Source: a virus. From it: 25,790 bases of DNA. Of the stretch, positions 2,314 to 5,996 are shown in pieces. Both the position numbers and the translations under genes were made by a program. Every line of letters begins with the position of its first letter. The first letter of the stretch is position 1. A model generated the notes under the pieces. It did not search any database and was not told the DNA's origin. It was given only the letters and a program-made list of their open reading frames with translations. The stretch spans positions 1 through 25,790 of IMG/VR virus record IMGVR_UViG_3300031977_003433. The stretch is one strand, 5' to 3'.

Positions 2314-3225
2314 ATGGCTATTTCACGCGCACAACTAGCTAAAGAGCTAGAACCCGGCCTGAACGCGTTGTTTGGACTGGAATATGATCGTTACGAGAAC
2401 GAGCATGCTGAAATCTTCGAAGAAGAGTCATCTGACCGTGCATTCGAAGAGGAAGTAATGCTTGGTGGTTTCTCAACAGCACCGACAAAAACTGAAGGCG
2501 GAGCCATTAGTTTTGACGATGCACAAGAGACATACACTGCTCGTTACACTCACGAAACTGTTGCTTTGGCCTTCTCTATTACTGAGGAAGCGATTGAGGA
2601 CAACCTATATGACCGCTTGGCGTCTCGTTATACGAAGGCTCTAGCGCGTTCTATGGCTCAAACAAAGCAAATCAAGGCGGCATCTATATTGAACAATGCG
2701 TTCAACACAGGTGCAAACGCTATCGGCGACGGTGCAGCACTTTGCTCAAATTCACACCCAAGCTTGTCAGGTAACCAATCAAACATCTTGGCGACAGCGG
2801 CAGACCTCAACGAGACATCTCTTGAGCAAGCTCTGATCGACATTGCAGGTTACACAGACGAGCGTGGCTTGAAAATTGCGGTTCGTGGTATGAAACTTAT
2901 CATTCCAAAAGAACTTCAGTTTATTGCAGAGCGTGTGCTTAACTCAAACCTACGTCCGGGTACAGCGGACAACGACACCAACGCAATGCGCTCAATGGGC
3001 ATGTTGCCAGAAGGTGCTGTTGTAAACCACTTCCTAACGGACACAGACGCGTTCTTCATCAAGACAGACGCGCCTAACGGGTTTAAGTACTTCAACCGTT
3101 CGCCAATCAAAACTGCCATGGAAGGCGATTTTGATACAGGCAACATGCGCTTTAAAGCGCGTGAGCGTTACAGCTTCGGTGTTTCAGATTGGCGTTCAGT
3201 GTTCGGTACTCCGGGCGCAGCGTAA
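2314..3225 (+). CDS. Major capsid protein (HK97-fold type)
   Basis: 303 residues, preceded by AAGGAG. The pattern is of an HK97-fold coat subunit: an acidic helical N-arm (1-50), a central ALARSMAQTKQIKAASILNN helix with a downstream GDGAALCSNSHPSL loop (a common coat-protein motif, GDG followed by HP), a P-domain-like region (LKIAVRGMKLIIPKELQF) and a beta-rich C-terminus ending in YSFGVSDWRSVFG. No separate prohead protease gene or long cleavable delta-domain is seen, consistent with a separate scaffold. The gene is followed by a strong terminator, as in T7 where the coat gene precedes a terminator. Coat identity is well supported by motifs, length and operon position; the subfamily is not certain. 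Confidence 0.85.
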   Translation: MAISRAQLAKELEPGLNALFGLEYDRYENEHAEIFEEESSDRAFEEEVMLGGFSTAPTKTEGGAISFDDAQETYTARYTHETVALAFSITEEAIEDNLYDRLASRYTKALARSMAQTKQIKAASILNNAFNTGANAIGDGAALCSNSHPSLSGNQSNILATAADLNETSLEQALIDIAGYTDERGLKIAVRGMKLIIPKELQFIAERVLNSNLRPGTADNDTNAMRSMGMLPEGAVVNHFLTDTDAFFIKTDAPNGFKYFNRSPIKTAMEGDFDTGNMRFKARERYSFGVSDWRSVFGTPGAA

Positions 3226-3243
3226 TCTGTTTACAATACTTCG

Positions 3244-3275
3244 AAAGGGTCGCTTACGCGGCCCTTTCTTTTTTT
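3244..3275 (+). terminator. Intrinsic terminator after the capsid gene
   Basis: AAAGGGTCGC (3244-3253), a TTAC loop and GCGGCCCTTT (3258-3267) form a 10-bp stem with one G-T wobble, followed by C and seven T residues (3269-3275). It lies 18 bases after the MCP stop. This is a textbook rho-independent terminator on the + strand. Confidence 0.9.
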
Positions 3276-3283
3276 GTTGAATA

Positions 3284-3292
3284 TGCTATTCT
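3284..3292 (+). promoter_or_regulatory. Candidate extended -10 promoter
   Basis: TGCTATTCT reads as an extended -10 (TG-C-TATTCT). No good -35 lies 16-18 bases upstream because that space is the terminator's T tract. The predicted start, 5-7 bases downstream, falls at about 3297-3299, the first bases of the GTGGGG stem. Weak on its own; location after a terminator and before the tail genes adds some support. Confidence 0.3.
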
Positions 3293-3296
3293 GCCA

Positions 3297-3378
3297 GTGG
3301 GGTAACATTAGCCTTGCAGACAGGATTACGCCCCACCTGACGTTGCACAGACTGCTCGGCGAAACCTTGTGCAAAGGG
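3297..3378 (+). promoter_or_regulatory. Candidate structured mRNA leader with two hairpins
   Basis: Hairpin 1 pairs GTGGGG (3297-3302) with CCCCAC (3331-3336), continues with TAA/TTA across a 2-base bulge, and has a small inner CCT/AGG stem. Hairpin 2 pairs TTGCACA (3343-3349) with TGTGCAA (3368-3374) around an 18-base loop containing GG-CGAAA-CC. The 3' arm of hairpin 2 runs into AAAGGG (3373-3378), the likely ribosome binding site for the gene starting at 3386. This layout could protect the transcript 5' end or tune translation. I do not match it to a known RNA family. Confidence 0.4.
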
Positions 3379-3385
3379 TAATATT

Positions 3386-3610
3386 ATGGCATCGACCACA
3401 TTCTCAGGTCCAGTGACTTCAACAGACGGATTCATTGGCGACATCAAAGTTCCAACTTACACTGTAGCAAATGCACCTTCCGCGTCTGACGCAGGCGCAG
3501 GCACAATCGTTTATGTATCAAACGGTGCGGCGGGTTCTGCAATTTTGGCTTTTTCTGACGGTACGAACTGGAAACGTTCAGATACCGGCGGAACAATTGC
3601 AGCGGCATAA
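3386..3610 (+). CDS. Small virion-type protein, function unknown
   Basis: 74 residues, preceded by AAAGGG at 3373-3378 with 7-base spacing. It is Ser/Thr/Ala/Gly-rich and beta-like, with a short core (GTIVYVSNGAAGSAILAFSD) ending GTNWKRSDTGGTIAAA. The F-S-D-G-T-N-W turn is common in phage fibre and decoration domains, where it closes a beta-hairpin. It is the first gene after the MCP terminator and structured leader, so it may be made at a different level from the head genes. Probably a virion surface or decoration protein; this is inference from composition and place. Confidence 0.6.
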   Translation: MASTTFSGPVTSTDGFIGDIKVPTYTVANAPSASDAGAGTIVYVSNGAAGSAILAFSDGTNWKRSDTGGTIAAA

Positions 3611-4123: not shown

Positions 4124-4927
4124 ATGTCTCGTGAAGTAAGCTCTATTACACGGATTGGTACTAGCGAGCCGTTTGAGCTTCAAATTGCGCGTGGACAAAT
4201 TGCTTGGCACAATCCGCTTTTTAAGTTCGGCAACAACGCCACTGTTGGAAACAGTTTGGAAACCATATGGGCAGAAGGTGGCCTTTACAGTTACTTGACT
4301 GCGGCAACTGTTCTAAAAGTTTCTAGCTCGTCTACAGACGACACTTCTGCGGGAACAGGGGCAAGGACAGTTCAACTGTACGGACTTGATGGTGACTACA
4401 ACGAAATAAACGAACTCGTTACCTTAAACGGGCAAACTGCTGTAAACACTACGCAATCATTTTTACGCATAAATCGTATGGTTGTGCGTTCTGCGGGATC
4501 GGGTGGAGCAAATGCAGGTGTTATTTATGCGGGAACAGGCACGGTAACGACAGGTGTCCCTGCAAATGTTTATGCTTCCATAAACGGAGTAGCGGGATCA
4601 AACCAAACTCTAATGGCTCTTTGGACTGTTCCTGCGGGATACACGGCGTACCTGCTCCAATATGACGTATCTAATGGAACTACTTCTAACACTCCGGCGG
4701 TTTGTAAACTTATTTTGGCGGTGAGGCCGTATGGCGAAGTGTTTCAGTCAAAAGATGTGAAATCTTTGACAACAGGTATGCACGTTGAAGAAACTTTTTC
4801 GGTTCCGCAAAAAATTACAGAAAAGTCGGACATAGAGGTAAGGGCAATATCGTCCTCCGCTTCTGTAACTTTTGACATTTCTGCGGCATTTGAGATTGTT
4901 TACATTAAAAACGGAGACACTTTTTAA
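4124..4927 (+). CDS. Virion structural protein, beta-rich
   Basis: 267 residues, ribosome binding site AGGGGT overlapping the previous stop. Largely beta: an N-terminal segment (FELQIARGQIAWHNPLFKFG), a middle region with VQLYGLDGDYNEINELVTLN (105-130), and a C-terminal beta-sandwich (about 165-267) with TVPAGYTAYLLQYDVSNGTT. The Y-G-L-D-x-D-Y-N-E-I segment is, from memory, common in uncultured marine podovirus structural proteins. It may be a head fibre, stabiliser or tail component. The stop TAA shares its last base with the next ATG. Confidence 0.6.
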   Translation: MSREVSSITRIGTSEPFELQIARGQIAWHNPLFKFGNNATVGNSLETIWAEGGLYSYLTAATVLKVSSSSTDDTSAGTGARTVQLYGLDGDYNEINELVTLNGQTAVNTTQSFLRINRMVVRSAGSGGANAGVIYAGTGTVTTGVPANVYASINGVAGSNQTLMALWTVPAGYTAYLLQYDVSNGTTSNTPAVCKLILAVRPYGEVFQSKDVKSLTTGMHVEETFSVPQKITEKSDIEVRAISSSASVTFDISAAFEIVYIKNGDTF

Positions 4928-5223
4928 TGCCTGAAAAGAAAGAAAAACCCATACGTCGCACCACTTCTGGCAAAGGGGCTAATTATCGCAAGACTAAGTC
5001 TGGCGCGGGCATGACGGAAAAGGGTGTGAAAGAGTATCGCAAAAAGAACCCCGGTTCTAAGCTTCAAACCGCCGTAACTGGTAAGGTTAAAAAGGGAAGC
5101 AAAGACGCCAAGCGTCGTAAATCCTACTGCGCTCGTTCCGCGGGACAGATGAAGAAGTTTCCCAAAGCAGCTAAAGACCCTAACTCACGCCTGAGACAAG
5201 CGAGAAAGCGGTGGAAATGCTGA
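4927..5223 (+). CDS. DUF6321-like very basic small protein
   Basis: 98 residues with about 34 Lys/Arg against about 6 Asp/Glu by my count. Recognisable family signature: GMTEKGVKEYRKKNPGSKLQ, then TGKVKKGSKDAKRRKSYCAR, and a C-terminus KDPNSRLRQARKRWKC. This is the pattern I associate with DUF6321 proteins, short basic proteins of unknown role in marine phages. Two Cys (in SYCAR and the terminal KC) are conserved-looking. Starts by TAATG overlap, without a clear Shine-Dalgarno, so it is probably translationally coupled to the upstream gene. Possible DNA-binding or condensing role is inference. Confidence 0.7.
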   Translation: MPEKKEKPIRRTTSGKGANYRKTKSGAGMTEKGVKEYRKKNPGSKLQTAVTGKVKKGSKDAKRRKSYCARSAGQMKKFPKAAKDPNSRLRQARKRWKC

Positions 5224-5441
5224 TGGCGGATAAAAGTGTACACGATTTGGAGTTGGAATTAGTGAAATTTCAAACGCAGCAAGATCATCTCGTAAAAAGC
5301 GTAGATACGCTTCAAAAAGACATGCGCGAAGTAAAGGTTACTTTGTTTCAGGCGAAGTGGATGATTGTCGGTGCTTTGGTGGTGGCCGGTTTGATGAACA
5401 GCGAAACTTTAATGCAGGCAATTATAGGGTTAGCAAAATAA
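5223..5441 (+). CDS. Coiled-coil single-span membrane protein (possible holin-type)
   Basis: 72 residues from the ATG at 5223, chosen because it forms a TGATG overlap with the previous gene; a GTG at 5211 would add four residues. Residues 5-43 are an amphipathic helix with heptad-like hydrophobics (LELELVKFQTQQDHLVKSVD), followed by one membrane segment (WMIVGALVVAGLMNSETLM) and a short amphipathic tail. This layout resembles XhlA-type haemolysin proteins associated with phage lysis. No endolysin is in the window, so lysis is unproven; a membrane-anchored virion or assembly factor is an alternative. Stop overlaps the next ATG (TAATG). Confidence 0.6.
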   Translation: MADKSVHDLELELVKFQTQQDHLVKSVDTLQKDMREVKVTLFQAKWMIVGALVVAGLMNSETLMQAIIGLAK

Positions 5442-5629
5442 TGGCTTATTCACGTAAAGGTAAAGGTGCCGCAAAGAAAAGTAAGGGTAGCAAGATTTGT
5501 CCTGCGGGCAAAGCGTGGGCGGAAAGAACTTTTGACACGTATCCTTCTGCGTATGCCAATATGGCGGCTTCTAAATACTGCAAGGACCCTAATTACGCTA
5601 AAAAAGCAAAGGGTAAGAAAAGTGGGTGA
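5441..5629 (+). CDS. Small basic Cys-containing protein, function unknown
   Basis: 62 residues starting at the TAATG overlap; longer upstream frames are not needed. Basic ends flank a conserved-looking core, SKICPAGKAWAERTFDTYPS (17-36) then SAYANMAASKYCKDPNYAKK. Two Cys lie 27 residues apart, and the net charge is about +13. The core looks like the short CPxGKAW...YPSAYA...YC proteins I associate with marine phages and large algal viruses, but I cannot name a family. Its end overlaps the next gene by 8 bases. Confidence 0.6.
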   Translation: MAYSRKGKGAAKKSKGSKICPAGKAWAERTFDTYPSAYANMAASKYCKDPNYAKKAKGKKSG

Positions 5630-5996
5630 GCTTAAAAAATGGCGGGACCAAGATTGGGTTAGGATTGGAACGGATGGTAAAATTAAAGGTAAGTGTGGCA
5701 CTTCAAAGAATAAAAAGAATCCTGACAGGTGCCTTCCACGATCTAAAGCAAATAGTCTTTCCAAATCCGAAAGAGCCTCAACAGCCCGCAAAAAGAAGCG
5801 CGAAGGGGCAAAAGGCAAAACCTTCGTCAAAAACACCAAAGCCGCGGAAGTCAAATTCAAAGCCCTCGGCGGTGAAATCAAAGCAACAAAAGCCAAAAGG
5901 CCGGCCCCGAAAGCAAACGCCCAAGGGGTCATAGCACGAGGCTGCGGCAAAGTTCTCTCTAGTCGCAGAAAACGTGCAAAGGGGTCTGTAAGCTGA
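5622..5996 (+). CDS. DUF5872-like basic protein
   Basis: 124 residues from a GTG at 5622. I chose this start because the readable family sequence begins there (GELKKWRDQDWVRIGTDGK) and the frame upstream of it is the shadow of the preceding gene. The core is KGKCGTSKNKKNPDRCLPRS, then KANSLSKSERASTARKKKRE, the C-G-x-S...P-x-C-x-P...S-x-x-x-R-x-x-x-x-R-K-K pattern I associate with DUF5872 and related phage proteins. The C-terminal half is Lys/Ala-rich and ends in a Cys-containing basic segment (ARGCGKVLSSRRKRAKG). Net charge is about +29. Nucleic-acid binding is inferred from charge. The TGA overlaps the next ATG. Confidence 0.65.
   Translation: MGELKKWRDQDWVRIGTDGKIKGKCGTSKNKKNPDRCLPRSKANSLSKSERASTARKKKREGAKGKTFVKNTKAAEVKFKALGGEIKATKAKRPAPKANAQGVIARGCGKVLSSRRKRAKGSVS

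Follow-up and report, generated by a model that had tools for sequence, protein, structure and literature searches.

In the virus record IMGVR_UViG_3300031977_003433, analysed here over its full 25,790 bases (the window; all coordinates below are window positions), some 110 bases of non-coding-looking sequence separate the terminator of the major capsid gene from the gene that begins at 3386, which raises the question of whether this stretch is an RNA element and what it might do. A first-pass annotation made from the sequence alone had read it as a structured 5' leader with two hairpins, starting near 3297 and possibly a new phage RNA element, placed ahead of tail genes. All the features described are present in the sequence, namely, besides the -10 box (3284-3292) and the terminator stem (3243-3268), GTGGGG (3297-3302) with CCCCAC (3331-3336), TTGCACA (3343-3349) with TGTGCAA (3368-3374), AAAGGG (3373-3378) before the ATG at 3386, and CAGG (3321-3324) with CCTG (3336-3339); the interpretation given to them was partly supported.

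Taken by itself the window gave evidence at chance level. Folding of 3276-3400 alone, the check proposed with the annotation, yielded a stability equal to that of shuffled sequences (z -0.03), likely because the helix sets {S1,S2} and {K,T,P3} (Table 1) cross; the nested minimum free energy of 3297-3388 was -24.0 compared with -14.6 for K+T+P3, the pseudoknot energy being left out of the latter. The -10 box at 3284-3292 was absent from the promoter scan's listing for the window, and a tRNA/tmRNA search found none in the window. No match to the window at gathering threshold was obtained with the 4227 covariance models of Rfam 15, the best sub-gathering match (E 0.056) lying over the capsid end and the terminator, and RF03012 (Mu-gpT-DE, gathering 49 bits) matched neither the window at that threshold nor positions 3200-3450 at E<=5.

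Comparison with relatives brought the evidence for the leader far beyond chance. Using the capsid protein as query, at least 80 IMG/VR loci were retrieved and the DNA 3' of the capsid stop was examined. By pattern, 14 of the 80 loci listed carried a window-like leader (class A) and 5 a leader in other letters (class C), and among the matches listed 50 of 69 distinct leaders belonged to class B, which resembles Mu-gpT-DE. The capsid loci, two pattern scans and a genome-contig scan together provided at least 84 distinct class A and at least 75 distinct class C elements. A further 240 loci were collected with the capsid proteins of Pelagibacter phage HTVC023P, lake phage DSL-LC04 and Manatee Spring virus ct7L0027; an MxxTTF-type start was located for 130 of these, many of whose leaders showed the same architecture in different letters, and the other 110 were left out of the analysis. 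The pairing statistics reported here do not take phylogeny into account. The genome-contig scan returned 38 places, and on reading two were judged true (L212 and L224, on MAG contigs 4,241 and 5,841 bases long); the remaining 36 resemble chance matches, many of them in one common coding-like context. A chromosomal or prophage origin was rejected on this count, and the element looks virus-borne. No such leader was seen 3' of the capsid genes of HTVC027P (L083) and 023Pt_psg01 (L085), where the next gene is of another kind. Three loci of the HTVC023P set have a further small hairpin type at the leader site, with AACCCTATGACCCTTCGGGGACTATTAACAAAAGGAG in L440 and L448 and different letters in L411.

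The architecture runs, in order, S1 5' arm, K 5' arm, ACnG (T 5' arm), S1 3' arm, Cn'GAC (T 3' arm), S2 5' arm, AGA, K 3' arm, P3 5' arm, S2 3' arm, P3 3' arm with the Shine-Dalgarno (SD) sequence, and AUG, and the window's copy occupies 3298-3378 (Table 1). The two hairpins first annotated are real, although they do not stand alone: a kissing helix, K, forms between their loops, and both are parts of a larger structured RNA. The CAGG/CCTG pairing, taken earlier as a competitor of the last pair of hairpin 1, is instead a real mini-helix, T, which links hairpins 1 and 2 and covaries outside class A. Since T takes C3336, the stem of hairpin 1 is present with 5 bp and lacks G3297-C3336. The 3' arm of hairpin 2, described as lying at the ribosome binding site, forms the six-base loop of a further hairpin, P3, whose 3' arm is the SD core. 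In the proposed fold this core, 8-11 nt 5' of the AUG, is base-paired within P3, and the outermost pair of hairpin 2 (3349-3368) competes with P3. The window's own K has 7 of 9 pairs (mismatches U3314.C3357 and U3315.U3356), so that the functioning of this very copy is uncertain.

Table 1. Features of the capsid-decoration junction in the window and the evidence for each.
Feature	Position	Strand	Basis or remark
Major capsid protein gene (Mu gpT-like)	2314-3225	+	PHROG 371, E 6e-23; Pfam Phage_capsid_4 and Mu-like_gpT on 2314-3222
Intrinsic terminator, stem-loop followed by T run	3243-3268	+	11 pairs, 7 GC
Extended -10 box TGCTATTCT, hexamer 3287-3292	3284-3292	+	Seen in the sequence; similar placement in relatives
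S1 5' arm UGGGG	3298-3302	+	Partner 3331-3335; covariation of S1 in relatives
K 5' arm GCCUUGCAG, loop of hairpin 1	3311-3319	+	Partner 3352-3360; covariation
T 5' arm CAGG	3321-3324	+	Partner 3336-3339; middle pair varies in other relatives
S1 3' arm CCCCA	3331-3335	+	As S1 5' arm
T 3' arm CCUG, followed by AC	3336-3339	+	As T 5' arm
S2 5' arm UUGCAC	3343-3348	+	Partner 3369-3374; 99.6% of cells paired, 84 sequences
AGA joint preceding K 3' arm	3349-3351	+	No variation among the 47 divergent A3 leaders
K 3' arm CUGCUCGGC, loop of hairpin 2	3352-3360	+	As K 5' arm
P3 5' arm CCUU (anti-SD)	3365-3368	+	RNAalifold from the alignment alone; paired in 84/84
S2 3' arm GUGCAA, 6-nt loop of P3	3369-3374	+	RNAalifold, P3 swap test, pairing count
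P3 3' arm AGGG, SD core	3375-3378	+	RNAalifold, pairing count
Gene for 74-aa protein (MASTTFSGPV), probable capsid-decoration/head-fibre protein	3386-3610	+	Constant N-terminus common to relatives; DSL-LC04 'cement protein'

Within the 84 class A sequences (alignment A1) the helices K, T and S2 together contained 137 cells with two-sided changes (114 in K and 23 in S2), compared with 30.4 in shuffles and with none of 500 shuffles reaching the observed number. In K such changes occurred at 6 of the 9 pairs, and sliding the partner by 1-3 columns left only 2-17 two-sided cells in the same test. With the alignment as its sole input, RNAalifold proposed K, T and P3. Paired cells made up 96.0% in K, 100% in T, 99.6% in S2 and 100% in P3, the values for T and partly for S2 being forced by the search pattern, which demands GACAGG and CC[CT]GAC and, at pattern-derived loci, also TTGC. 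For S1 the mean helix score in class A was 14.48, above the partner-swapped controls (mean 12.84, maximum 13.42 of 200), and helices of at least 4 bp were found in 80/84 sequences, which is not above the swap control (mean 75.5, maximum 81); this test misread L088, L143, L181 and L189, in which CCCCGAC was taken for CCTGAC. Compensatory changes in both stems, the test set by the annotation itself, were found: in S2 as a change from C-G to U-A in 23 of the 84 sequences, and in S1 in the divergent alignment A3 described below.

More divergent leaders were parsed using the order of S1, K and S2 only, with no mismatch allowed and T not used. The architecture was recognised in 92 of 176 distinct leaders at no more than 4 of 100 dinucleotide shuffles, 81 of them at 0/100. 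Six of the 92 are mis-registered (L031, L087, L553, L559, L574 and L601), and in L551 and the positive L515 the stretch taken does not begin at the capsid stop. With the six counted as negatives and the window, L515 and L551 set aside, the corrected total is 85/174, under half of the leaders, made up of 28/41 in the HTVC023P set, 32/34 in the DSL-LC04 set, 8/23 in the ct7L0027 set, 14/69 in the first set and 3/7 named phages (DSL-LC04, L082; HTVC023P, L086; ct7L0027, L250). The window, L001 and L024 score 'none' because no mismatch is allowed, leaders of the window type often failing through a mismatch in K.

The T motif was present in 79 of the 92 parser positives (the 13 without it include the six mis-registered rows), and its middle pair was Watson-Crick in 79/79, compared with a shuffled mean of 30.0 and maximum of 43, and occurred in all four forms (A-U 41, U-A 24, C-G 10, G-C 4). 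Conversely, a selection of leaders by T alone, class B included, contained 71 distinct K arm pairs, of which 48 formed at least 6 of 7 pairs (swap mean 8.5, maximum 18); 48/71 is probably an undercount, as the first AGA was taken and several HTVC023P and DSL K arms are therefore two bases out of register. The six mis-registered rows remained in both of these tests and were dropped from those on P3. Alignment A3 comprised 47 of the 60 divergent rows, L515 among them (left out were L385, L390, L392, L394, L398, L415, L418, L455, L493, L514, L516, L517 and L519). Its covariation score was 0.759 against 0.212 in shuffles (0/500) and its two-sided cells numbered 223 against 80.7; since the parser had preselected the rows for pairing in S1, K and S2, the values for S1 and K are inflated, and that for T is unbiased. 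Further pair types in A3 were not above shuffles (37 against 34.1, 51/500). ACnG, CnGAC and AGA were invariant across the 47 leaders. The base pairing proposed for the kissing leader is well supported by covariation.

Across all classes P3 is weaker than K, T and S1. At least 3 bp around the 6-nt loop were formed in 38 of 74 distinct leaders of all classes (swap mean 21.2, maximum 28, 0/500), with the pair variants CUC/GAG, CUU/AAG, CC/GG, CCUU with GGGG, AGGG or GAGG, and GUG/CAC. The P3 score of 7.26 lay above right-flank swaps (maximum 7.21) and moderately exceeded left-flank shuffles (mean 6.65, sd 0.25, maximum 7.44). Most leaders of the HTVC023P type have a weak P3 or none, so pairing of the SD is not universal. 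In the window-like leaders it is the rule: the SD lies inside the structure (P3 3' arm, 3375-3378) in 84/84 class A sequences, and a covarying RNA structure that holds the SD has the marks of a cis-regulatory translation leader. The distance from S2 to the start codon was 9-13 nt in 76 of the 92 parsed leaders.

The position of the element relative to promoters bears on a different explanation, namely that the pseudoknot is purely a 5'-end stabiliser, which blocks 5'-end-dependent decay and so supplies an abundant structural protein with plenty of stable mRNA, while translation goes unregulated. From the end of the best -10 hexamer to S1 there are 6-9 nt in 26/28 leaders of the HTVC023P set and 31/32 of the DSL set, and 5-9 nt in 11/14 of the first set; in class A the -10 box lies 14-24 nt before K in 74/83 leaders. 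For the HTVC023P and DSL sets this position would put the transcript start at hairpin 1, so that S1 would be formed by the first bases of the transcript, and terminator and new promoter together imply a separate transcript, all of which suits a stabiliser, as does the independence of the leader from the C-terminal domain encoded downstream (see below). A plain hairpin would suffice for that purpose, however, and the invariant ACnG, CnGAC and AGA and an SD-pairing P3 would be unneeded; moreover, the ct7L0027-set leaders keep the fold with a -10 at this place in 0/6. We therefore regard stabilisation as the sole role as rather unlikely.

The genomic placement of the element was scanned on both strands of 81 sources (603,676 bases) for perfect helices plus T at a score of at least 40. 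Of the 26 places found, 17 were class A or C leaders, all of them before an MxxTTF gene, and three were class B leaders at the leader site that had been read in the wrong register (L029, L031, L038); six lay elsewhere, one of which, in L023, scored 47 and thus more than the weakest true leader (43.5), and shuffled DNA gave 7 places. The two mismatches in its K caused the window's own copy to be missed. In L515 about 1 kb separates the element from the capsid gene, with another reading frame between them (the preceding stop is 1,048 bases beyond the end of the capsid match), and an MxxTTF-type gene still follows, which indicates that the element goes with the downstream gene. The intervening frame of L515 (2401-3448) begins VIYKIIN...YVGSTNN and looks GIY-YIG-like, perhaps an inserted homing endonuclease.

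That the element might be a trans-acting small RNA or a ribozyme, its position before the next gene being incidental, is suggested by the typing of the neighbouring Mu-gpT-DE as 'Gene; sRNA' in Rfam and by the nested pseudoknots that occur in ribozymes. The short spacing to the start codon, the SD inside P3 and the arrangement in L515 argue against it, and no terminator-like site is listed between the element and the 3386 gene, the only other plus-strand site being at 3526-3541, inside the gene; we consider this explanation very improbable.

The gene following the leader, which had been annotated as a tail gene, looks instead like a head-decoration gene. In class A the next protein begins MASTTFSGPV, of which TF is forced by the start-codon pattern (AC.TT[TC]) and the rest is not, and the protein of phage DSL-LC04 with this N-terminus is annotated as 'cement protein'. 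On the constant N-terminus and this annotation the window's 3386 gene probably encodes a capsid-decoration protein and not a tail protein. Searches with the 74-aa window protein gave no PHROG, Pfam or credible PDB match, its AlphaFold model (pLDDT 79.8, pTM 0.58) had no PDB match at E<=0.001, and a PDB sequence search with the DSL-LC04 cement protein gave no credible match. The decoration-type genes combine a constant MxxTTFxGP N-terminal arm with exchangeable C-terminal domains of very different length, independently of leader class. Over all classes the C-terminal parts formed 18 clusters, of which 3 were singletons, and the largest cluster was found behind leaders of class A (49), C (36), B (4) and D (2). 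Feedback by the protein's own C-terminal domain is weakened as an explanation, since the same cluster follows several leader classes. On the 3' side of the decoration-type genes the window has a run of short, partly overlapping reading frames (4927-5996), at least the first of which is lysine-rich by eye.

The same independence bears on the idea of a ligand- or protein-sensing switch, in which a metabolite, the capsid protein or a host factor would exchange a sequestered for a free SD. The invariant bases outside the main helices of otherwise divergent sequences look like a binding or tertiary core, and P3 competes with the outermost pair of hairpin 2, but exchange of the leader class takes place without regard to the downstream domain. 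A sensing switch appears to us improbable.

Many relatives carry a Mu-gpT-DE-like RNA at the leader site instead of the kissing leader. Mu-gpT-DE is said to stem from the work of Weinberg et al. in 2017, and we know of no role for this candidate RNA. Rfam searches of nine relatives matched only RF03012, in the class B loci L002, L018 and L055, and gave no match at gathering threshold in the class A and C loci L010, L024, L053, L048 and L070. In eight class A, C, D and E loci searched at E<=0.5 RF03012 was not found and only two sub-gathering matches appeared (L086 3846-3984 and L515 2403-2462), both upstream of the elements. The two RNAs share a locus between a Mu gpT-like capsid gene, which they directly follow, and an MxxTTFxGP gene, and the RF03012 trait of lying downstream of a Mu gpT-like head gene is thus present in the window; they have the short words CTGAC and GACAGG in common, and the SD is probably paired in Mu-gpT-DE too, but Mu-gpT-DE has a 53-nt model and a different helix order. 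In class B a CCTG/CAGG pairing lies at the SD, and the linker preceding GACAGGAG shows complementarity to the start region in 65/65 pattern-matching leaders (46 distinct, e.g., L002, L018, L055, L084 and L245), as GCC with UGGC in 39 and CCC with UGGG in 26; because the pattern itself requires CC and TGG[CG], this rests on one informative base, and sequences rather than independent events are counted. The complementarity suggests a pseudoknot over the AUG that extends beyond the 53-nt Rfam model.

Leaders with a pseudoknot that overlaps the ribosome-binding site and sequesters the SD are known from the E. coli alpha operon (S4), rpsO (S15) and T4 gene 32. The kissing leader resembles them in that respect and appears to have another topology, consisting of two hairpins, a loop-loop helix and the mini-helix T. 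In TAR-TAR* and ColE1 RNA I-RNA II, too, a hairpin loop of 6-7 nt pairs along its full extent, which is the arrangement put forward for the P3 loop and S2; those complexes are intermolecular, whereas the kissing leader would form within one RNA. We rate the leader as a putative new RNA family of a known general kind. A literature search covering part of the published sources found no such leader described, which is no proof of absence; Mu-gpT-DE is named in a single passage of PMC7657543, and the main text of the 2010 list of 104 candidate RNAs (PMC2864571) has 0 occurrences of 'capsid'.

A structured RNA at the first bases of the transcript and an SD paired in P3 point to control of translation initiation, and the presence of Mu-gpT-DE at the same site, with its start-region complementarity, supports such a mechanism. 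We therefore somewhat favour the reading that the element acts in cis, as a 5'-terminal RNA of the decoration-gene mRNA, to gate translation and in addition to shield the 5' end. Transcription would restart past the capsid terminator and the first bases of the transcript would fold into S1, whose loop would be locked to the S2/P3 region further downstream via K and T, with the P3 loop pairing with the S2 5' arm. The SD core paired in P3 would throttle or time translation initiation of the gene after the capsid gene, and the structured start would also shield the 5' end of the mRNA, likely as a by-product. Some trigger would open the gate; candidates are the loading of ribosomes, a protein of phage or host, and the kinetics of folding. 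Both this opening and a lowering of translation by the paired SD are what we infer from the fold and its place.

On a wider and more tentative reading, which we hold possible while giving it somewhat less than even credence, the kissing leader would represent a phage-wide, undescribed class of pseudoknotted riboregulators, an exchangeable 5' cassette (promoter, kissing RNA, SD and constant N-terminal arm) in front of exchangeable decoration domains that meters decoration against capsid synthesis, with Mu-gpT-DE filling this role in sister phages. Through this analysis an abundant group of aquatic (marine and freshwater) phages, which includes the cultured HTVC023P and the named DSL-LC04, gains an RNA fold backed by covariation, and Mu-gpT-DE gains a testable role at the same locus. 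It also gives a concrete picture of how the capsid-to-decoration protein ratio might be adjusted by phages, and does so in isolates amenable to culture and mutation.
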